Shown piece by piece: positions 9,073 through 25,673 of a stretch of DNA of 64,000 bases. The translations under genes were made by a program, and so were the position numbers. The notes beneath the pieces were generated by a model. It saw only the letters and a program-made list of their open reading frames with translations. It did no database searches and was not told the DNA's origin. How positions within the stretch are numbered: position 1 is the stretch's first letter; each line of letters opens with the position of its first letter. The stretch is from Sorangium aterium. Its GTDB lineage: Bacteria; Myxococcota_A; Polyangia; Polyangiales; Polyangiaceae. The stretch lies in the NCBI RefSeq assembly GCF_028368935.1, contig NZ_JAQNDK010000001.1:3534001-3598000 (forward strand), read 5' to 3'.

Positions 9073-9861
9073 ATGAAGAACCTGGTTCGTTTCCTCGCCT
9101 CCTCCGATCACGACGTCGCCCGCGCCGTTCGGCACGTGCGCCAGCAGGTCCGCGGCTTCACCCTGCCCGCGCCGCGGCCGATCGTGGTCCCGATGCGCAT
9201 GGCGTTCGAGGCGGCGCGGGAGGCGTACTACTTCGGCGCTCGCGTGCTCGTCTGCGAGCCGCACTTCAAGTCGCACTGCGCGCAGTACGGCAAGGGCGTC
9301 CGGACGGGGAATTTCATCCACTACATCCAGGGGCGGGGCGACATCCTCCTTGGCGACAACGTGGTGCTCGACGGCAAGATCAACTTCGTCTTCGCCCGGC
9401 GGTTCTGCGACCGCCCCACGCTGCGGATCGGCGACAACACAGGGATCGGGCACGGCTGCCGGATCATCGTCGGCAAGTCGATCACCATCGGCAAGCACTG
9501 CCGCATCGCGGGGAGCGTCTTCATCCTCGATTCGAGCGGCCACCCGAGCGATCCGGAGGCCCGGAAGCAGGGCCTGCCGCCCTCGGACGCCGAGGTGCGG
9601 CCGGTCGTCATCGAGGACAACGTGTGGCTCGGGGCCCGGTCGATGATCTTCCCGGGGGTCACGGTGGGCGAGGGCAGCGTGGTCGCGGCGGGCGCCATCG
9701 TGATGGCCGATGTCCCTCCGTACACCGTCGTCGCTGGCAATCCGGCCCGACGGGTGGCATCACTGCGGACCGAGCCGGCGCCCGAGGCGAATCGAGCCGA
9801 CGCGAAGAAGCACGGCGCGGACGACGCGGGGAGGCGCTCGGTCTCCGACAGCGCATCGTAA
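9073..9861 (+). CDS. hexapeptide-repeat acyltransferase
   Basis: A 262-residue left-handed beta-helix acyltransferase (WbbJ/maltose O-acetyltransferase-like). Residues about 85-235 carry hexad repeats such as [18 protein letters not shown] and V-G-E-G-S-V, and end with the classic loop [13 protein letters not shown] segment in the coil probably supplies catalytic histidine. The family transfers acetyl or other acyl groups from CoA or ACP to sugars or antibiotics. It is the first gene of a tight operon: the carrier protein starts 14 bases downstream, which makes an acyl-carrier donor plausible. The C-terminal 30 residues are charged and low complexity. Confidence 0.85.
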
Positions 9862-9875
9862 CCCTGGAGCTTCTC

Positions 9876-10103
9876 ATGGCGATCGAGTTGGATCAGGTGA
9901 CCGAGATCATCGTCACGCTCAGCAAGGTTCCCGGCATCGGGCCTGATGACGACATCTTCGACGCAGGGGTCACCTCCATTCTTGCGGTTTCACTCATCCC
10001 CGAGCTGGAGGAGCGGTTCAACGTGACCATCCCCGACGACGGCAGGTTCCTTGCGGCCCGCACGCCGCGCGCGCTGACCGCGATGCTGCGGGAGCTCGAG
10101 TGA
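9876..10103 (+). CDS. acyl/aminoacyl carrier protein
   Basis: A 75-residue phosphopantetheine-binding carrier protein. The modification site is S34 in D-A-G-V-T-S-I-L, followed by the helix II pattern L-I-P-E-L-E-E-R-F-N, as in acyl and peptidyl carrier proteins; the usual Asp before the serine is replaced by threonine. The rest fits the four-helix fold (I-G-P-D-D-D-I-F-D-A loop, R-T-P-R-A-L-T-A-M helix IV). The short reading frame begins at ATG 9876 after GGAGC, inside a longer spurious frame. Its stop overlaps the next gene, an aaRS-like ligase, so it is the probable amino acid acceptor of that enzyme rather than the fatty-acid ACP. Confidence 0.88.
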   Translation: MAIELDQVTEIIVTLSKVPGIGPDDDIFDAGVTSILAVSLIPELEERFNVTIPDDGRFLAARTPRALTAMLRELE

Positions 10104-11278
10104 TGAGAAGGACGGTCACGGTCGAGCTCGCGACGCCTGCGACCGAGATGGCGCAGGAGGAGATCCCGAAGCAGATCGCCTTCCTCTCGAAGGACATCTC
10201 GAACATCCGCTTCGTCCGCGAGGGCGCCGCGCTGGAGTTCGAGGCCCCCGAGGAGGGCGCGGGAGAGCTCGCGCGCGCGGCCGAGGGCCTCGCGCGCTCC
10301 ATGCAGCGCAGCCTGCGCCAGATCGCGCGCAAGCTCGTGTACCGCAGCCCGGCGTGCGATCGGGTGGAGTTCCGCGGCGGCGCGCTCCCCGCCGGGATCA
10401 CGCAGATGGGCCAGGGCCAGGTCGCCCTCGAGGGCATGCCGCTGCGGCTCTACCGCTACTTCGATCGCACGCTGGAGGCGCTCGGCGCGCCGTTCTCGCC
10501 GAGCCCGATCCTGGTGCCGACGTTGATCCCGGCAACGACGCTGGCGAAGTGCGACTATTTCCGCTCGTTTCCCCACATCGTCACGTTCACGTGCCACCTG
10601 CCGGAGGACATGCCGCGCATCGAGGATTTCCGGGCGAGGCACCAGGACCGGGACACCCTCGACGAGCGCGCGCTGAGCGACATGGCGCAGCCGGAAGTGT
10701 GCCTCTCGCCGGCGGTCTGTTACCACGTGTACGCGGCGAACCGGGACCGGGTGCTGCCGGCGGGCGGCGCGCGCTACGCCCTCGCGGGCCGCTGCTTCCG
10801 CTACGAGTCGAGCAAGATGGTCGACCTGCGGCGGCTCTGGGAGTTCACGATGCGGGAGATCGTCTTCCTCGGGTCGCGGGAGGAGGTCCTCGCGCTGCGC
10901 GAGCAGGGGAACGAGCTCGTGGCGCGCTACCTCGACGAGCACCGGCTCGCCGGCGAGATCCGGACGGCGAGCGACCCGTTCTTCATCGCGCCGGACGCGG
11001 CCGCCAAGACGTACTTCCAGATCAGCAGCGAGACGAAGTACGAGATCTCGCTGATGCTCCCGGAGGGCGAGCGCGTGGCGGCCGGCTCGCTGAACTACCA
11101 CACCGACTTCTTCGGCCGCGCGTTCAGCTGCGATGTCGAGGGCGCGGGCCCGATGCACAGCGTGTGCATCGCGTTCGGCCTGGAGCGGTGGGTCTACGCG
11201 TTCCTGGCCCAGCACGGCGACGATCCGAGAGGCTGGCCCGAACTCGTGCGGCGGTCTCCCGAGATGGCCAGTCTGTAG
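10100..11278 (+). CDS. amino acid--[carrier protein] ligase, class II aaRS-like
   Basis: Homologue of the catalytic core of atypical seryl-tRNA synthetases (392 aa). Class II motif 2 is visible as R-C-F-R-Y-E at residues 231-236 and motif 3 as G-L-E-R-W at 360-364. C207, E253 and C356 are spaced like the Cys-Glu-Cys zinc triad of amino acid:[carrier protein] ligases. No tRNA-binding domain is evident. Known family members activate Gly or Ala with ATP and load it onto the phosphopantetheine of a small carrier protein instead of tRNA. About 120 residues precede the core. The start is GTG 10100 (4-base overlap with the carrier stop) or ATG 10103; either couples translation. The amino acid specificity cannot be read here. 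Confidence 0.85.
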   Translation: MMRRTVTVELATPATEMAQEEIPKQIAFLSKDISNIRFVREGAALEFEAPEEGAGELARAAEGLARSMQRSLRQIARKLVYRSPACDRVEFRGGALPAGITQMGQGQVALEGMPLRLYRYFDRTLEALGAPFSPSPILVPTLIPATTLAKCDYFRSFPHIVTFTCHLPEDMPRIEDFRARHQDRDTLDERALSDMAQPEVCLSPAVCYHVYAANRDRVLPAGGARYALAGRCFRYESSKMVDLRRLWEFTMREIVFLGSREEVLALREQGNELVARYLDEHRLAGEIRTASDPFFIAPDAAAKTYFQISSETKYEISLMLPEGERVAAGSLNYHTDFFGRAFSCDVEGAGPMHSVCIAFGLERWVYAFLAQHGDDPRGWPELVRRSPEMASL

Positions 11279-15801: not shown

Positions 15802-17394
15802 ATGCGACACAAGCCCTCGGTCGTGCTCTCCTCGGCGGCGCTCCTCCTCGCCGCCACGGCGGGCGACGGCCTCGCCAGCCCGCGCGCGGCCGTGCGCGAG
15901 CAGGCAAGCGCCGCGTGGTTCATGGACGGCGGGCGCCGCGTCGACGTCGAGCGGCTCGGTCCGGCCGCGCTGGGCGCGTCCTCGACGCCGCGCGCGCTCG
16001 CGCCGGTGCGGCTCCGCTATCCAGGCGGCCGGACCGTTCAGGCGAGCGTCGGCGCGACAGCGATCGTGGAGGTCGAGCCTGGCGCCGAGGGCGCGCTCGG
16101 CGCCGCTGGCGTGGAGGTGGTGAGGCCGCTGATGCCCTCGATCGGGCTGTGGCTCGTCAGGGACACCGGCGGCGGCGATGGCCTCGACCTCGCCCAGCGC
16201 CTCCAGGGTGCGGCGCGGCCGGCCTTCGTGCGTGAGGCGATCCCGGACCTCCACGTGCGCCTCAAGGCGCACGGCGCGCCGTTCGCGCCGGACGACCCGC
16301 GCCTGCCCGACCAGTGGTACTTCGACGACCTCCGGATGCAGGAAGCCTGGGGGCGCACGCAGGGGGACGCGGCCACCTCCATCGTCGTCATCGACACCGG
16401 CTGCGACCTCGATCACCCGGACCTCGCCGCGAAGATGGATCCAGGGCTGGACGTCATCGACGGCGACGACGACCCCACCTACCAGGCAGGCGGACAGAGC
16501 GTGAACCACGGGACGGCCTGCGCGGGCCTGATCGCCGCCGACACCGACAACGGCGTGGGCATCGCGGGCGGCTGCCCCGCCTGCAGGCTGCGGTGCGTGC
16601 GGCTGCTCGACGACGAGCCGCGGCCGATCTCCGCCTCGGTCGACGCCTTCGAGTTCGCGCTGCAGGTGAACGCCGCCGTCGTGTCGAACAGCTGGGGGTA
16701 CGCCGATCCGATGCCCGTCCCCAGGGTGGTCGAAGCCGCGATCAACCGCCTCTTCGACGCCGGGCGCAACGGGAAGGGGGCGCTCGTCCTGTTCGCCGCC
16801 GGCAACGACGACCGGGAGATCCTCGACGACGAGCTCCAGGCCGTGCGGGGCGTCCTTACCGTGGGCGCCGTCAACCACCTGGAAGACGCGACGCCGTTCA
16901 CGAACCGCGGGAGATCCCTCGATCTCGTCGCGCCCACGGGGACGCTGAGCACCGATATCGCCGGGAGCGAGGGGGACGACGCGAGCGACTACACCGACCG
17001 GTTCGGCGGCACCTCGTCGGCGTGCCCTGTCGCCGCCGGCGTCGCGGGGCTGCTGGTGAGCGCCGCGCCCGAGCGGACCGCGGGCGAGCTCTACGACGTC
17101 ATGATCCGGACGGCGCGGCTGGCGCCGTACGCGGTCCCCGACGAGAGCGGGCACGATCCCATCTTCGGGCACGGGATCATCGACCCTGTCGCGGCGCTCA
17201 CGGAGGTGCTCGGGGACGCGCCGCCGCCGCTGGCAGGAGGGGGCGAGGGCGCCGACGACCAGCACGCCGGCTGCGCGTGCGCCTCGGCCGGCGCGGGCTC
17301 GGGCGAGCGGCGAGGCCTCGCGGCGGCGGCGCTCCTCGGCCTGGCCGCGGCGGCGCGCCGGCGCGGCGCGGCCCGCGCGCGCCGCGGAGGATGA
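15802..17394 (+). CDS. S8 (subtilisin-like) serine protease with MYXO-CTERM-like tail
   Basis: Secreted subtilase of 530 residues. An N-terminal signal peptide (about 1-25, ending L-A-S) is followed by a pro-region and a catalytic domain at about 165-450. The triad is D198 (V-V-I-D-T-G), H236 (N-H-G-T-A-C-A-G) and S405 (G-G-T-S-S-A), with oxyanion N335 (F-A-A-G-N-D). Near the C-terminus C-A-C-A-S-A-G is followed by an Ala/Leu-rich helix and an Arg-rich end (485-530). This matches the MYXO-CTERM sorting pattern, in which a cysteine is modified and the protein anchored to the surface. Start choice is backed by AGGAGAG six bases upstream of ATG. It converges on the STAS-like cluster. Confidence 0.92.
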   Translation: MRHKPSVVLSSAALLLAATAGDGLASPRAAVREQASAAWFMDGGRRVDVERLGPAALGASSTPRALAPVRLRYPGGRTVQASVGATAIVEVEPGAEGALGAAGVEVVRPLMPSIGLWLVRDTGGGDGLDLAQRLQGAARPAFVREAIPDLHVRLKAHGAPFAPDDPRLPDQWYFDDLRMQEAWGRTQGDAATSIVVIDTGCDLDHPDLAAKMDPGLDVIDGDDDPTYQAGGQSVNHGTACAGLIAADTDNGVGIAGGCPACRLRCVRLLDDEPRPISASVDAFEFALQVNAAVVSNSWGYADPMPVPRVVEAAINRLFDAGRNGKGALVLFAAGNDDREILDDELQAVRGVLTVGAVNHLEDATPFTNRGRSLDLVAPTGTLSTDIAGSEGDDASDYTDRFGGTSSACPVAAGVAGLLVSAAPERTAGELYDVMIRTARLAPYAVPDESGHDPIFGHGIIDPVAALTEVLGDAPPPLAGGGEGADDQHAGCACASAGAGSGERRGLAAAALLGLAAAARRRGAARARRGG

Positions 17395-17396
17395 CG

Positions 17397-17822
17397 TCAG
17401 GCTCCGGGCTGCCGCCCCGTCCGGAGCTCGTCCCGCTGCGCGAGCAGCCACGCGCGCGCCTCGCCTTCCGTGTTGAAGAACGCAATGGCGTGCGAGCGCT
17501 GCGCGAGGAGGTTCATGCTCTTGAAGATGAGCGTCCCGATGACGCGGAGGGAGAAGCTCGCTCCGAAGAGCGCGACCGCATCGAGGCGCGCCGAGCTCAG
17601 CCCTTCCGCGAACGCCTTGCGCGCCGGAGGTGAGATCGCCCCGTTGCCGCGCGCATCGGAGAGCACCAGGACGTCGCGGCCGCTGTCCCTCAGGCGCTGG
17701 CACGCCGCGGTGATCGTGCGCGCCATCTGCTCCGAAATATCGCCCACGACCGTGATGAACAAGACGCCATCGGGCTCTTCGCGGAGGTCGAGGCGCGCGC
17801 CCTCCGGTCGGGGATCGCTCAT
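17397..17822 (-). CDS. STAS/SpoIIAA-like protein, subtype A, copy 2
   Basis: A 141-residue protein built like STAS or SpoIIAA-like domains: strand L-F-I-T-V-V-G-D-I-S, helix, strand D-V-L-V-L-S-D-A-R, helix, strand L-D-A-V-A-L-F-G-A-S-F, ending in an F-F-x-T-E-x-E-A-R-A-W-L-L-A-Q-R block. It is one of four tandem paralogues and groups with the 18521 copy by L-R-E-E-P-D-G and S-x-N-L-L near the C-terminal third. The start MSDPRPEG overlaps the stop of the upstream paralogue by four bases. Partner-switch signalling is possible but unproven; no anti-sigma kinase lies nearby. Confidence 0.7.
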   Translation of the reverse strand: MSDPRPEGARLDLREEPDGVLFITVVGDISEQMARTITAACQRLRDSGRDVLVLSDARGNGAISPPARKAFAEGLSSARLDAVALFGASFSLRVIGTLIFKSMNLLAQRSHAIAFFNTEGEARAWLLAQRDELRTGRQPGA

Positions 17823-18241
17823 GCGCCCCGCCGCGCGTCCCGGAGCGCATCCCGCTGGGCGAGCAGCCATGCGCGCGCCTCGCCTTCGGTCTCGAAGAAC
17901 TCGACCGGATAGGATTGCCTCGACAGGATCTGCACGCTCTTCGCGGCGAGCGTCGAGACGACGCGCACGGCGAAGCTCGCGCCGAACAGCGCGATCGCGT
18001 CGAAGCGCACGCCGCGGAGCTCCTCCGCCATCACCTTGCGCGCCGACGCCGAGATGGTCCCGAGGCGGCGCGCATCGGAGAGCACGAGGACCGCGCGGCC
18101 GCCCTCCGACAGGCGCCTGCACGCGGCGGAGATCGCGCGCGCCGTGTCGTCCGAGATGTCGCCCTCGATGGCGGTGCACAGGATCCCGTCGGCGTCCTCG
18201 CGGAGGGCCTGGCTTGCGTCGTCGATGCGGGGGTCGCTCAT
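17819..18241 (-). CDS. STAS/SpoIIAA-like protein, subtype B, copy 2
   Basis: A 140-residue paralogue of its neighbours with the same strand-helix plan: L-C-T-A-I-E-G-D-I-S-D, V-L-V-L-S-D-A-R-R, D-A-I-A-L-F-G-A-S-F and the terminal F-F-E-T-E-G-E-A-R-A-W-L-L-A-Q-R. It is closest to the 19031 copy (shared R-E-D-A-D-G, A-E-E-L-R-G-V-R-F and R-V-V-x-T-L-A). I set the start at the MSDP codon shared by all four copies and not at the ATG 20 codons upstream. It overlaps the next gene by four bases (ATGA), so the pair is translationally coupled. A 279-base gap separates it from the first pair. Confidence 0.68.
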   Translation of the reverse strand: MSDPRIDDASQALREDADGILCTAIEGDISDDTARAISAACRRLSEGGRAVLVLSDARRLGTISASARKVMAEELRGVRFDAIALFGASFAVRVVSTLAAKSVQILSRQSYPVEFFETEGEARAWLLAQRDALRDARRGA

Positions 18242-18520
18242 GGCGTTGCACGGTAGCTCGTTTGCGCGGCGGTACGACGTTCGCTCGATCACGGACGCCA
18301 CCCGCGCGACGATCGGCGGAGCGGCCGATCGAGCGCGTGGGTCGCCGTTCAGGGCCGCGCATGCGCCGGATCATCCGCGCGCCGCGCGAGCGCGTCCGTC
18401 ACGGCTCGCGCGTGCGCCGGGGAGACGCTGGCGCGCCGCGGCGACGCGTGGAACATCGGACATGGCCCCTGCGAAGGAGACGCACATCCTGCCCCCGCGG
18501 GCGCGCCGCGGGGGGTGACG

Positions 18521-18955
18521 TCACGCCTGGGTTCGCCGCCCGGCCCGGTGCGCTCCCCGCTGCGCGAGGAGCCACGCGCGCGCTTCGGCTTCCGTCTCGA
18601 AGAACACGAGCCGAGGGAACCGCTTCGTGAGAAGGTTGATGCTCTTCATGATGAGCGTCGCCATGACGCGGATGGAGAAGCTCGCCCCGAAGACCGCGAT
18701 CCCATCGAGGCGCGCCGAGCGCATCCCATCCAGGTACACCTTGCGCGCCGCCGGCGTGACCGCCCCGCAGCGGCGCGCGTCGGCGAGCACCAGCACGTCG
18801 CGGCCGCTGTCCGTCAGGCGCTGGAAGGCGTCCACGAGCGCGCGCGCGTTGTCCTCGAGGACATCGCCGTCGGTCGCGATGACCAGGAGGCCATCGGGCT
18901 CTTCGCGGAGCTCGAAGCGCGCGCCCGCCGGACGGGGATCGCTCATGTCGGACAT
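18521..18955 (-). CDS. STAS/SpoIIAA-like protein, subtype A, copy 1
   Basis: A 144-residue member of the cluster: L-L-V-I-A-T-D-G-D-V-L, D-V-L-V-L-A-D-A-R-R, D-G-I-A-V-F-G-A-S-F-S-I-R-V and the common end F-F-E-T-E-A-E-A-R-A-W-L-L-A-Q-R. Two starts are possible, ATG 18955 (MSDMSDP) or ATG 18946 (MSDP); the latter matches its paralogues. Cys and Ala replace residues of the other copies in D-A-R-R-C-G-A-V-T. It lies 75 bases below the subtype B copy at 19031. The conserved C-terminal R-A-W-L-L-A-Q-R in all copies may be a partner-binding helix. Confidence 0.68.
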   Translation of the reverse strand: MSDMSDPRPAGARFELREEPDGLLVIATDGDVLEDNARALVDAFQRLTDSGRDVLVLADARRCGAVTPAARKVYLDGMRSARLDGIAVFGASFSIRVMATLIMKSINLLTKRFPRLVFFETEAEARAWLLAQRGAHRAGRRTQA

Positions 18956-19030
18956 GGTAGCCCATCCCCGCGACGCGCGCCCCGCGCGCCGGCGCTGCGC
19001 CGATGGCGCGCGCCTCGGAGGGCGGCAGCG

Positions 19031-19456
19031 TTATGCGCCCTGCCGCTGCGTGGCCCGGAGCGCGTCTCGCTGGGCGAGCAGCCACGCGCGCGCCTCGTCC
19101 TCCGTGTCGAAGAACGCCAGCGGATAGACCTCGCCCGTGAAGAATTGCACGCTCCTCGAGGCGAGCGTGGTCACGACGCGCAGGGAGAAGCTCGCCCCGA
19201 AGACCGCGACCCCGCTGAAGCGCACGCCGCGCAGCTCTTCCGCCAGCGCGCTGCGCGCCGCCGCCGTCAGGGTCCCGACGCGGCGGGAGTCGGAGAGCAC
19301 GAAGACCTCGCGGCCGCTGTCCGCCACGCGCCTGAACACGGCGCAGAGAGAGCGCGCGATCTCCTCCGAGATATCGCCCTCGATGGCGAAACAAAGAAAG
19401 CCGTCGGCGTCCTCGCGGAGGAAACGGCACGTGTCCTCGGAACGGGGCTCGCTCAT
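19031..19456 (-). CDS. STAS/SpoIIAA-like protein, subtype B, copy 1
   Basis: A 141-residue protein and the most upstream gene of the four-paralogue array. It has F-L-C-F-A-I-E-G-D-I-S-E-E-I, E-V-F-V-L-S-D-S-R-R-V-G, G-V-A-V-F-G-A-S-F-S-L-R-V-V-T-T-L-A and the closing F-F-D-T-E-D-E-A-R-A-W-L-L-A-Q-R. The start MSEPRSED corresponds to the MSDP of the others; an ATG 11 codons upstream lacks support. The second aspartate region (S-D-S-R) occupies the place where SpoIIAA-type proteins have their regulatory Ser, but alignment is needed. Promoter DNA should lie in 19457-19645. Confidence 0.68.
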   Translation of the reverse strand: MSEPRSEDTCRFLREDADGFLCFAIEGDISEEIARSLCAVFRRVADSGREVFVLSDSRRVGTLTAAARSALAEELRGVRFSGVAVFGASFSLRVVTTLASRSVQFFTGEVYPLAFFDTEDEARAWLLAQRDALRATQRQGA

Positions 19457-19547
19457 CTCCCGCAGGCTAGCGCATTCGGCCCACCGCAAGACGAGCGCTC
19501 GCGGGGCCGGCGAGAGAGAGCGCTCGCCGGGTGACGCGCCTCACCGA

Positions 19548-19645: not shown

Positions 19646-21280
19646 TCAGCGCCTGCGCCGGCGCGCGGCCAGCGCGAGCAGCGAGGCGCCCAGCGCGCAG
19701 CCGAAGGCCGCGGCGGAGCTCGCGGGCGCGGCGGCCGGCGCCACGACGCGGCAGCCGCACCCGCCGTCGTCGACGCCCGCTGCCCCCTCGGCAGGCGCCT
19801 CGCCGCCGGCGCCGCCGCCACCGCCGCCGGTGGCCTCCGCGTCGGCCCGGCACGCGGCGACCTCGTCCGGCGTGCCGATGCACAGCGTCGGCTTGCGCGA
19901 TTCGCCTTCTTGAAGGCCGTTCACCACGATCACGGCAAGGTCATCGGCGCCCGCCGTGTCGACGAGCGCCTCGCCCGAGGCGACGTCGCCGGCGCGCACC
20001 ACCTCGCCGTACACGCGGCCGCGCCGCGCCGCGAGCAGCAGCGCGAGGCCGGAGAGCTGCGCCGGATCGTCCGCGGGCGCCGCGAGCGCGGCCGTCATGG
20101 TCGCGCGCCCCGCGGGGGGGACGCTGAAGTACTGCGCCGACGCATGGAAGACGCGCAGCCCGTCCGCGTAGGGCGCCGCGACCTCCTCCGGGGCGAGCCC
20201 GCGGTAGCCGGACCCGGCGGCGTAGGAGCGCTGGGGATCCGCGGCGGATCCGGTGAGCAGGTTCCAGGCGGCGAACTCCACGAACGCCTCGGCGAACGTC
20301 GTCTGCGCCTGCGACGAGAGCAAGGGGTCGAGCTGCTCGAACCACACAGGATCCGCCTCGCCGTTCGCGCCGTCCTCGAGGCGCTCCCAGAGCGCGCGGA
20401 CCGTGCCGTCCCCGAAGCGCTCCTCGAGGAACTGGAAGAAGAGCGCGCTCCCGTAGCTGAAGGGGTCCACAGGGCCGGTGAAGGGCACGTCGAGCGACCG
20501 ATCCGTGTTCGCGAGGTAGCCGTCGACGAAGCCCTCGAAGTCCTTCAGCGAGGGGTCGAACGACTCGGTCGCCCAGACCGCGGTCCCCTCCGTGATCAGC
20601 GTGTCCTGGCCGTGGTCGTAGGCCGCCTGCACCGCGTGGAAGAGCTCGTGGCTCCCGAGGATCCGGTTCGCCGTCAGCGTCGACGGATAGCCGTAGCCGC
20701 TGTAGTCGTTCTCCTGGGTCATGAAGCCCGCGCAGCGGTCCCCGGCGTCCTCGGCGCAGGCGTCGACGCGGAACACGCCGTCGCCGACGCCGGCGAAGTC
20801 GACGAGGTAGACGTCGAAGCGGCCGTCGCCGCCGTTGTCGGGCAGGTCCTCGTCGCTCCTCGGCGGCCGGAAGCCGAGGACGTCTCGGTAGTGGGCGATG
20901 ACCTCGTCGTAGACGGCGGCGACCTCCTCGACGAAGTCGGGGACGCCCGTCGCGTCGTCGTCGGCGGCGGGCACCGCGCAGCGCCCCTCGCGCGCGAAAT
21001 GGACGAGGAAGCTCCCCGACGCCGACGCGAAGGTCTCGACGCCGTCGTCCGGATCGAACCGGAACTGGAGGCTCGTGCCGCGCGAGTCGGGCCGGTCGAG
21101 CGGCGCCGCGGCGGGCCCGTCGAGCGGCGCCGCGGCCGTGTCGTCCGCGCCGCAGCCCGCGAGCGACGGCGCGAGCCAGGCCGCAAGCACGGCCGCGGCG
21201 CGGCCCAGGCGGCGCCACGGGGCCGCGGCGCGGGCCAGGCTGCTGCGCCACGCAGGCTCAGCGCCGGCGGTCCGCGTCAC
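19646..21280 (-). CDS. putative zinc metalloprotease, MXAN_6640-like, lipobox plus MYXO-CTERM-like tail
   Basis: A 544-residue exported protein. HELFH at residues 211-215 is a zincin H-E-x-x-H motif, with a downstream I-T-E-G-T-A-V-W-A-T-E segment likely to supply the third ligand. The layout resembles the MXAN_6640 family of putative metalloproteases. The N-terminus has a signal peptide ending L-A-G-C (C43, lipobox). The C-terminus has C-G-C-R, an Ala-rich helix and a final Arg run, typical of MYXO-CTERM. Having both anchoring signals is unusual. The GTG start at 21280 overlaps the HmuY-like stop by four bases; a longer frame from 21355 would overlap it by 79 bases and is less likely. Confidence 0.82.
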   Translation of the reverse strand: MTRTAGAEPAWRSSLARAAAPWRRLGRAAAVLAAWLAPSLAGCGADDTAAAPLDGPAAAPLDRPDSRGTSLQFRFDPDDGVETFASASGSFLVHFAREGRCAVPAADDDATGVPDFVEEVAAVYDEVIAHYRDVLGFRPPRSDEDLPDNGGDGRFDVYLVDFAGVGDGVFRVDACAEDAGDRCAGFMTQENDYSGYGYPSTLTANRILGSHELFHAVQAAYDHGQDTLITEGTAVWATESFDPSLKDFEGFVDGYLANTDRSLDVPFTGPVDPFSYGSALFFQFLEERFGDGTVRALWERLEDGANGEADPVWFEQLDPLLSSQAQTTFAEAFVEFAAWNLLTGSAADPQRSYAAGSGYRGLAPEEVAAPYADGLRVFHASAQYFSVPPAGRATMTAALAAPADDPAQLSGLALLLAARRGRVYGEVVRAGDVASGEALVDTAGADDLAVIVVNGLQEGESRKPTLCIGTPDEVAACRADAEATGGGGGGAGGEAPAEGAAGVDDGGCGCRVVAPAAAPASSAAAFGCALGASLLALAARRRRR

Positions 21281-22071
21281 GGCAGGAGCGCCCACCGGAC
21301 CTGGAAGTTGGCGGAGCCGGTGTTCTCCATGGGGACCATCCCGGTCTCCTGGCACTGCGCCTGCGTCTGCTCATTGTAGAAGTGCGTGACGGTCAGCTTG
21401 AGGCTCCGGCCATCGGCGAGCCGGAGCACGTAGACGAGGCCGGTCATCTTCACGCACCCGGGGTAGGTCCAGTAGCCGGAGAGCGCCGTCGCCGGGGAGT
21501 CCAGCCCGGAGCCGTCGGGGATGAGCTCGCAGCTCTCGGTGAAATACTCGTCGCTGCGGAGCCTCAGCTCGCCGGGCGCCTCGGTGATCCCATCGTAGTC
21601 CGGGGTGCCCGGGAGCCGCGCCGCCGTGACGCAGGACGGCCCGGAGTGGCCGCTGTTGATGCGCACGATGTAGCGCCGGAAGGCGATGTCCCAGTCCATG
21701 GACTGGAGCGACGCCTCGTCGGAGATCTCGACCTTCTCGAGGCCGGCGTCCGTGAACCGGGCATAGACGTAGGCGTCGGGATCGGAAGCGAAGGGGCCGC
21801 CCGCGGTGGCGTCGACGAGGGAGCGGATGCCGGCGCCGTCCTGCTCGTTGAGGATCTCCCCTGCCGCCACGGTGTCCTGGAGGTTCATCTGCTGGAAGAC
21901 CTCATCCTCGCAGGGCACCGGCGTGGGCTCCGAGCAGACGGGCCCGGCGGGACCGCTGCCCCCCTCGCCGCCAGGGCCGATCGGGTCGTCGGAGCCGCAG
22001 GCGCACAGGGCAAGGAAGGCGAGGCTGGCGGCGACGAGGGGAGACGCAGTCGAGGAGCCCATTGGCGACAT
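21277..22071 (-). CDS. HmuY-like lipoprotein
   Basis: A 264-residue lipoprotein: signal peptide with lipobox ending L-C-A-C (C25), a Gly/Pro linker with Cys, then an HmuY-like domain. The diagnostic block is D-W-D-I-A-F-R-R-Y-I-V-R-I-N-S-G-H-S-G near residues 128-146, with a G-Y-W-T-Y-P block and a final N-F-Q-V-R-W strand, as in HmuY relatives. HmuY of Porphyromonas binds heme; many relatives in other phyla keep the fold without proven heme binding. The stop overlaps the metalloprotease start (GTGA), so the two are translated together; release of a ligand from host or prey protein is conceivable. Confidence 0.8.
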   Translation of the reverse strand: MSPMGSSTASPLVAASLAFLALCACGSDDPIGPGGEGGSGPAGPVCSEPTPVPCEDEVFQQMNLQDTVAAGEILNEQDGAGIRSLVDATAGGPFASDPDAYVYARFTDAGLEKVEISDEASLQSMDWDIAFRRYIVRINSGHSGPSCVTAARLPGTPDYDGITEAPGELRLRSDEYFTESCELIPDGSGLDSPATALSGYWTYPGCVKMTGLVYVLRLADGRSLKLTVTHFYNEQTQAQCQETGMVPMENTGSANFQVRWALLP

Positions 22072-24053: not shown

Positions 24054-25673
24054 ATGGGCATGGGGACCGCACCGACCGTGAAGGCTCTCGACGGCGCGCC
24101 GGCGTCAGCGGCTCACAGGGCGGTGCTGGACAGGAACGCCATACGCCGCGCCATGCGTCCGGAGCGCGCCGCGCACGGCGAGAGCCAGCGCCGCGCGGTC
24201 CAGCGCGCGACGTACATCGGCCTGTGGGTATGGCCTGGCTTCTTCCTGTTGGATCTGTACATGGCGACGTGGGTTTATCCCAGCGCGCCCCTCTGGCATT
24301 TCGCCGCGCTCCGGCTCGCGGAGCAGGCCGCCATCGTCGCCGTCTACCGGATGTCGCTCAGGAGAGACGTCTCCCTCCGGCGCATCGCCGGCGCCGGGGA
24401 CCTGCTCTTCCTGGGAGCCGCCCTGTTCATCTCGGCGATGGCGCTCGACCTGGGCGGGGTCCGCAGCATTTACATGGATGGGCTCTCGGTCCTGATGCTG
24501 GTCCGCTGCGTCATCGTGCCGGCCCCCTGGTGGTCGGCGCTGCGGTCTCTGGCGCTCCTCGCGCTCACGTACCCCCTGGTGATGGGCACCGCCGCCGTGT
24601 TCTCCGTGCCGATCCGCGCGTCGCTGCTCGACGTGTCGGAGCTGGCGGGCGTCGCCGGACACTACGTCTTCGTGCTCGCCTCGGCCCTCGTGGGAGCGCT
24701 CTCGAGCCAGCTTGTCTGGTCCGCGCAGCAGCAGGTCTACCAGGCCCGCAAGCTCGGCCGGTACCGGCTGAAGGCGCAGATTGGCCAGGGAGGTATGGGC
24801 GAGGTCTGGCTCGCGTGGGACGAGACGCTGGGCCGCAAGGTGGCGCTCAAGCTGCTCCGCACGCAAGAAGCACCGGAGCCCGCCGATCTGAGGCGGTTCC
24901 AGCGAGAGGCTCACGCCGCCAGCGTGCTGAGCAATCCTCACACCATTCGCATCTTCGACTTCGGCGCGAGCGACGATGGCATCTATTACATCGCCATGGA
25001 GTATCTCCCGGGCGCGGATCTCGGCGCATTGCTCGCCGCGTACGGCCCGATGCCGCCGCAGCGCGCGGTGCGCTTCATCGCGCAGGCGTGCGAGTCGCTC
25101 ATCGAGGCGCACGACGCAGGGGTCATCCATCGGGACATCAAGCCGCAGAACCTGTTCGTGACGCGCGTCGGCGACGATCACGACTTCGTCAAGCTGCTCG
25201 ACTTCGGGATCGCGCGGGTTGTCCCCAGGGGGGAGCCCACCTCGGGCACCAGCACAGGCGTGATCCGCGGGACTCCCGAGTACATGGCGCCCGAGCTGTT
25301 CTGCGGTGAGCAGGCGGACGCGCGTAGCGACATCTACGGGCTCGGCGTGACGTTCTATACGCTGCTCGCGGGCGGTCCGCCGTTCGAGGGCAGCTCGCTG
25401 GCGCAGGTGATCGCGGCGCAGCTCTCGCAGCGGCCAACGCTGCCGTCGGCCCGCCGCAAGGAGCCGCTCCCTGCGCAGCTCGAGGCCGTCGTCCTCCGCT
25501 GCCTCGAGAAGGATCCGACGGCGCGCTTCCAGTCGATGCGGGAGCTCGCCAGCGCCGTGGGGGAGCTCGCCGACGACGCCGCGTGGAACGCGCGGGACGC
25601 GGAGCGGTTCTGGCGCGATCACGTCACGCAGCTGGCGAGGATGGAGGCGCCGACCCAGGAAGTTTCGGCCTGA
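24054..25673 (+). CDS. Ser/Thr protein kinase with N-terminal multi-helix membrane domain
   Basis: A 539-residue eukaryotic-like kinase. Residues about 53-225 form six hydrophobic helices, then a short linker (230-236) leads to a full kinase domain at 237-505: G-Q-G-G-M-G at 244-249, K266 in V-A-L-K, H-R-D-I-K-P-Q-N at 359-366 (D361 catalytic), D-F-G at 383-385 and A-P-E at 412-414. Most Hanks-type bacterial kinases put the kinase first and have one helix; here a polytopic sensor-like region precedes it, similar in layout to MASE-type sensor modules. The kinase should be active. The start follows GAGAGGGG. Neighbouring genes do not identify the substrate. Confidence 0.92.
   Translation: MGMGTAPTVKALDGAPASAAHRAVLDRNAIRRAMRPERAAHGESQRRAVQRATYIGLWVWPGFFLLDLYMATWVYPSAPLWHFAALRLAEQAAIVAVYRMSLRRDVSLRRIAGAGDLLFLGAALFISAMALDLGGVRSIYMDGLSVLMLVRCVIVPAPWWSALRSLALLALTYPLVMGTAAVFSVPIRASLLDVSELAGVAGHYVFVLASALVGALSSQLVWSAQQQVYQARKLGRYRLKAQIGQGGMGEVWLAWDETLGRKVALKLLRTQEAPEPADLRRFQREAHAASVLSNPHTIRIFDFGASDDGIYYIAMEYLPGADLGALLAAYGPMPPQRAVRFIAQACESLIEAHDAGVIHRDIKPQNLFVTRVGDDHDFVKLLDFGIARVVPRGEPTSGTSTGVIRGTPEYMAPELFCGEQADARSDIYGLGVTFYTLLAGGPPFEGSSLAQVIAAQLSQRPTLPSARRKEPLPAQLEAVVLRCLEKDPTARFQSMRELASAVGELADDAAWNARDAERFWRDHVTQLARMEAPTQEVSA

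Follow-up and report, generated by a model that had tools for sequence, protein, structure and literature searches.

The family PF11964 (SpoIIAA-like/DUF3478) is widespread, yet a literature search found no experimentally established function for it. Two of its members from Shewanella, with the structures 2q3l and 2ook, contain a nonpolar cavity under a lid and are predicted to make contact with membranes (PMC2954212). Between the open and closed forms of these proteins helices alpha2 and alpha3 move over the nonpolar cavity, and the dimer is the main form in solution (PMC2954212). The authors of that study read them as Sec14-like carriers or membrane-surface proteins, and described the switch residues for only about 20 close relatives (PMC2954212). 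PF11964 is also described as Sfri0576-like, and a further structure of the family is 3bl4. Related folds are found in STAS antagonists such as SpoIIAA, RsbV and RsbS and, according to PMC2954212, in the CRAL-TRIO/Sec14 lipid carriers.

The DNA analysed here is a stretch of 64,000 nucleotides (the window) from the 13.5 Mb genome of Sorangium aterium. Within positions 17397-19456 it contains four intact paralogues of 140-141 residues, all on the minus strand, in the order B1 (19031..19456, 141 aa), A1 (18521..18946, 141 aa), B2 (17819..18241, 140 aa) and A2 (17397..17822, 141 aa), as the first-pass annotation had described. For A1 we place the start at 18946 instead of the ATG at 18955, because every homologue starts with MSxPR. 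The spacers measure 84 nt between B1 and A1 and 279 nt between A1 and B2, and the start of A2 overlaps the stop of B2 by 4 nt (ATGA). The motifs that had been used to define the two subtypes are exact: REDADG and AEELRGVRF occur in both B proteins, and LREEPDG and S[IM]NLL in both A proteins. The sequence EARAWLLAQR is indeed common to all four, but does not form the very end of the proteins as had been stated, since about 11 residues come after it. Protein identity is 62% for B1/B2, 62% for A1/A2, 50% for B1/A1 and 59% for B2/A2. This likeness is far beyond chance: with A2 as the query, a search of the genome returned the other three genes and one further copy with E-values of 1e-37 to 1e-50, and no other match with an E-value below 0.02. 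The tandem arrangement of A and B subtypes distinguishes these genes from known PF11964 proteins.

Each of the four proteins matches PF11964 (E 4.8e-10 for B1, 3e-9 for A1, 1.3e-10 for B2 and 2.1e-8 for A2) with 35-42 bits over positions 1-105 of 106, and thus passes the Pfam gathering cut-off of 25 bits. Among the 38 sequences that we collected, 34 match this family at E <= 0.01. An NCBIfam search of the four proteins returned no family. The earlier label "STAS-like" is appropriate at the level of the fold but not at that of the family, which is the STAS cousin PF11964 and not PF01740 (STAS). The latter has 76 matches genome-wide, none of which falls at the locus, and is absent from the hmmscan results at E <= 10.

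The solved structures nearest by sequence are 3bl4 (E 1.9e-5) and then 2q3l. A PDB search with a profile of the four sequences gave mainly designed helical repeats, which are chance matches. AlphaFold2 models were compared with known structures for one protein of each subtype. The B2 model (pLDDT 89.8) is matched best by 4xs5 (Z 11.7), and also by 2q3l (chain A; Z 10.9, rmsd 3.2, 118 aligned residues) and 2ook (Z 9.4). For the A2 model (pLDDT 89.2) the top match is 2q3l (Z 11.9, rmsd 2.7, 119 aligned residues), and then 4xs5 (Z 11.7). As modelled, B2 and A2 have the SpoIIAA-type alpha/beta fold, with the lid helices alpha2 and alpha3 known from PF11964 structures. Sfh5 and the neurofibromin Sec-PH domain match the B2 model at Z ~7.

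The B2 model also matches two phospho-switch proteins with nearly equal scores, SpoIIAA (Z 9.3) and RsbS (Z 9.5). Since this fold is the one common to STAS antagonists (Z about 9-10 over the B2 and A2 models), the four proteins might be anti-anti-sigma factors of the SpoIIAA/RsbV type, controlled by distant kinases, with a separate partner for each copy. A profile alignment with 2q3l places residue 64 of B2 on Ser66, which corresponds to the phosphoserine of SpoIIAA; Ser or Thr occupies this position in each of the four window proteins. This residue, however, is not conserved across the family: 8 of the 16 Sorangium members have Leu, Pro or Ala instead. The lack of a match to PF01740 also argues against such a switch, and so does the gene neighbourhood. 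The immediate neighbours encode a subtilase, a putative secreted protein, an HmuY-like protein and a membrane protein; the first-pass annotation had noted that no kinase or sigma factor adjoins the four genes, which holds for these neighbours, and no HATPase kinase of the SpoIIAB/RsbW type or phosphatase is found there either. Taken together, we consider the phospho-switch unlikely. The nearest kinase is a Hanks-type Ser/Thr kinase with membrane segments (24054-25673, plus strand), about 4.6 kb from B1 and on the opposite strand; there is no evidence linking the two. A role in a defence system was rejected, since PADLOC gave a single, very weak match (E 0.003), which forms part of a large protein unrelated to these genes.

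Comparison with the Shewanella proteins suggests a different type of function. The core formed by beta4, beta5 and alpha4 (A..G, F, A..WL) looks conserved in the window proteins. In contrast, the GxLxH motif and the Shewanella switch residues His6, His31, Tyr34, Trp71 and Asp73 are not evident in the alignments with the window proteins. The CRAL-TRIO/Sec14 carriers, which share the overall fold, differ in being eukaryotic and larger, and their relation to the window proteins is not detectable by sequence. From the fold and from published homologues at <20% identity, we infer binding of a ligand or a membrane. Each protein would be small and soluble, with the SpoIIAA/Sec14 fold, and probably a dimer; helices alpha2 and alpha3 would form a movable nonpolar lid over a nonpolar pocket. 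Such a protein may bind a lipid-like ligand or a membrane surface, as a carrier or as a surface-acting protein, and A and B may be specialised for different ligands or partners. Of 19 residues that distinguish the A from the B subtype, 9 lie in the lid helices, a weak concentration that is suggestive at most (p 0.07 by a loose definition and 0.28 by a strict one). Overall, we consider it fairly likely that the locus holds two copies, made by block duplication, of a B-A unit of PF11964 proteins that bind lipid-like ligands or membranes and in which A and B have specialised.

The duplication history can be read from trees and from the DNA between the genes. The first-pass annotation had predicted that A1 and A2, and B1 and B2, would be sister pairs. 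Both relations were recovered, the second more weakly. The clade of A1, A2 and the A copy of strain So0157-2 has support of 96/93 in the protein tree and 99/98 in the DNA tree. The sister relation of B1 and B2 has moderate support (90/87 for protein and 70/90 for DNA, where the tree does not fully support it), and the single genes that three other Sorangium genomes (G002, So0157-2 and G005) carry at the same locus group with B1 and B2 (95/97, DNA tree). The opposite topology, which would join neighbours (19031 with 18521 and 17819 with 17397), was looked for and rejected: forced B1+A1 and B2+A2 clades gave p-AU values of 0.008 and 0.004 for protein and of 0.005 and 0.0001 for DNA. An origin of A from B in the window lineage only was rejected as well, since a clade of the window A and B genes with the So0157-2 pair, leaving out the single genes, gave p-AU 0.007; A therefore predates the split of the species, and its absence from this locus in the other Sorangium genomes presumably reflects loss. 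It follows from these groupings and rejections that the split between A and B is old, and that the doubling of the pair came later.

The ages of the two subtype pairs agree with this order of events. Synonymous distances were calculated by the Nei-Gojobori method, which is biased in GC-rich genomes, so that only comparisons between dS values are meaningful. No age difference is seen between B1/B2 (0.30) and A1/A2 (0.26), whose values lie 0.04 apart [-0.12, 0.20], and the distances between B and A exceed those within either subtype.

Two footprints show that the B-A unit was copied as a tandem block. The first lies between A1 and B2, where 92 bp (18362..18453, minus strand) are 80% identical to positions 20058-20149, on the same strand and inside the upstream gene. 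This gene (19646..21355, minus strand) encodes a putative secreted or lipoprotein-like protein with no Pfam match. The match has an E-value of 5e-16 and scores 76 bits, compared to 31 bits for the next unrelated match of this spacer within the window. The second footprint repeats the 3' tail of the convergent downstream gene, a subtilase (Peptidase_S8; 15802..17394, plus strand; PF00082, E 8e-43). This copy (18493..18520, minus strand) directly follows the stop codon of A1 and agrees with the tail behind A2 in 21 of 24 bases in register. Its antisense reading gives PRARRGG and a stop, compared to ARARRGG and a stop at the end of the protease. As a control, 989 other 24-mers that start with TGA were compared, and the best of these reached 17/24. 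Both flanking genes are conserved as neighbours in six of six Sorangium genomes. In the simplest account, an ancestral row of secreted-protein gene, B, A and protease would have undergone tandem copying of a block that extended from inside the secreted-protein gene through B and A to the last codons of the protease, after which the inner remnant of the secreted-protein gene would have decayed. A degraded copy of the secreted-protein gene/protease locus apparently exists elsewhere in the window genome (G000:C6:872353-872824), where 145 bp from the secreted-protein gene (92% identical) are joined to ~318 bp from the 5' end of the S8 protease gene (79% identical).

The order B-A-B-A might instead have arisen by independent gene-by-gene duplication or by gene conversion. 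GC-rich tandem paralogues can indeed convert, and the support for B1-B2 is only moderate. However, both footprints require one block in which B and A were copied together with upstream-gene sequence and the protease tail; divergence is equal in both subtypes; and sliding identity reveals no mosaic between neighbours. We consider this origin very unlikely, and conclude, as had been proposed from the first reading of the sequence, that a B-A unit was duplicated with each partner keeping its subtype.

At the same locus there is a single gene in four of the five other Sorangium genomes (G002, So0157-2, G005 and G003) and none in the fifth (G001). B2 is the closest of the four window genes to the single gene in related genomes. 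This gene is B-type in G002, So0157-2 and G005, and is related but more distant in G003. Just upstream of the single gene, G005 contains what is left of the C-terminal part of another, decayed family copy (L059:564-674), so that this genome once had at least two copies. In G003 the secreted-protein gene and the single family gene are separated by an unrelated small ORF with repeats like SWFDGKPHIRVYTLSGDGN..ESCWDKDHWY (L053, about 9450-10500).

So0157-2 has only the B-like gene at the original locus, and carries a B1-A1 pair at a second site (4663772-4664705). Its identity to the window is 93% along 1092 bp, a stretch that takes in 126 bp on the upstream side and about 29 bp from the protease tail. 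The homology stops near 18493, not far from the junction of the block. With a dS of 0.07 [0.04-0.11] to B1-A1, compared to 0.18-0.32 for seven neighbouring genes, the unit, which sits at this accessory site together with its flanks, is much younger than the neighbouring genes. The low dS suggests that the pair was probably copied or transferred between lineages after the species split, and that it arrived as a unit. The right flank of the site occurs in So0157-2 alone and the left flank is a multicopy gene family; given these flanks, no empty counterpart of the site was identifiable.

Most copies of the family are preceded by a promoter-like element. The sequence TANNNT is found 7-8 nt before the ATG in 15 of 16 Sorangium family genes, compared to 1% of all ATGs in the window. 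In the window it reads TAGCCT for B1 (19464..19469, minus strand, 7 nt before the ATG, a leaderless arrangement), TACCAT for A1 (18954..18959, minus strand, 7 nt) and TACCGT for B2 (18250..18255, minus strand, 8 nt). The one gene without it is A2, the start of which overlaps the stop of B2. Similar elements precede about 13% of Sorangium coding ORFs (18 of 137 sampled), compared to 2% in a shifted-frame control; since the element is this common, it probably represents the leaderless promoter in its local form and nothing special to these genes. Literature searches on leaderless promoters in myxobacteria, and on paralogues in Sorangium, yielded no useful information. With separate elements for B1, A1 and B2 and none for A2, the first three genes look independently expressed and only B2 and A2 coupled: B1, A1 and B2 would each be transcribed from their own leaderless promoter, and A2 would be expressed by translational coupling to B2.

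These observations bear on the question as to whether A and B form an obligate heteromer, in which case mutual need of the subunits would explain why the pair has been retained, copied and relocated as one. In favour, the unit underwent one duplication and also sits together at the second site in So0157-2; every A-type gene found lies directly behind a B-type gene (twice in the window genome and once in So0157-2); B2 and A2 overlap; and relatives with the SpoIIAA-like fold form dimers (PMC2954212). On the other hand, the same linkage follows simply from block duplication, three genomes have B-type genes without A at the same locus, and B1 and A1 have separate promoter-like elements. The residues that differ between A and B are also not concentrated at the published dimer edge. 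We regard an obligate heteromer as rather unlikely. It is doubtful, too, that B and A are the subunits of a heteromer that binds lipid or membrane and that duplicates and passes from one Sorangium genome to another as a self-contained two-gene cassette, with a leaderless promoter for each gene.

A further reading does without any function at the level of the pair: in a fast-evolving, non-essential family, tandem copies may come and go as birth-and-death noise. Family copy number ranges from 1 to 8 per Sorangium genome, the locus is empty in G001, and decayed or truncated copies occur in G005 and in So0157-2 (at 1345091). Values of dN/dS between copies and orthologues are 0.5-1.3, compared to 0.23-0.52 for neighbouring genes (So0157-2 comparison). 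Noise fits less well with the fact that all 16 full-length copies are intact, 15 of them with the conserved promoter-like element, and that the subtype signatures persist after duplication. We lean against this reading, though it deserves serious consideration. Of the copies mentioned, the further full copy in the window genome (C2:2342374) is related to a tandem cluster of So0157-2 (1345091-1346297; L056:9047-10298), which consists of two intact copies and the C-terminal fragment of a third. Far larger expansions than in Sorangium are seen in other genera of the same taxonomic family: G036 and G019 have 16-18 relatives per genome, and the 18 copies in G036 include five tandem pairs.

The four genes thus belong to a known family with a clear and fast history of birth and death. 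In itself the locus is ordinary, one well-resolved expansion of paralogues in a myxobacterial genome of very large size; what is unusual is how clearly its duplication history can be read. The block duplication, the second site and the relatives that have one subtype only make up a natural experiment on the roles of A and B and on their mutual need.
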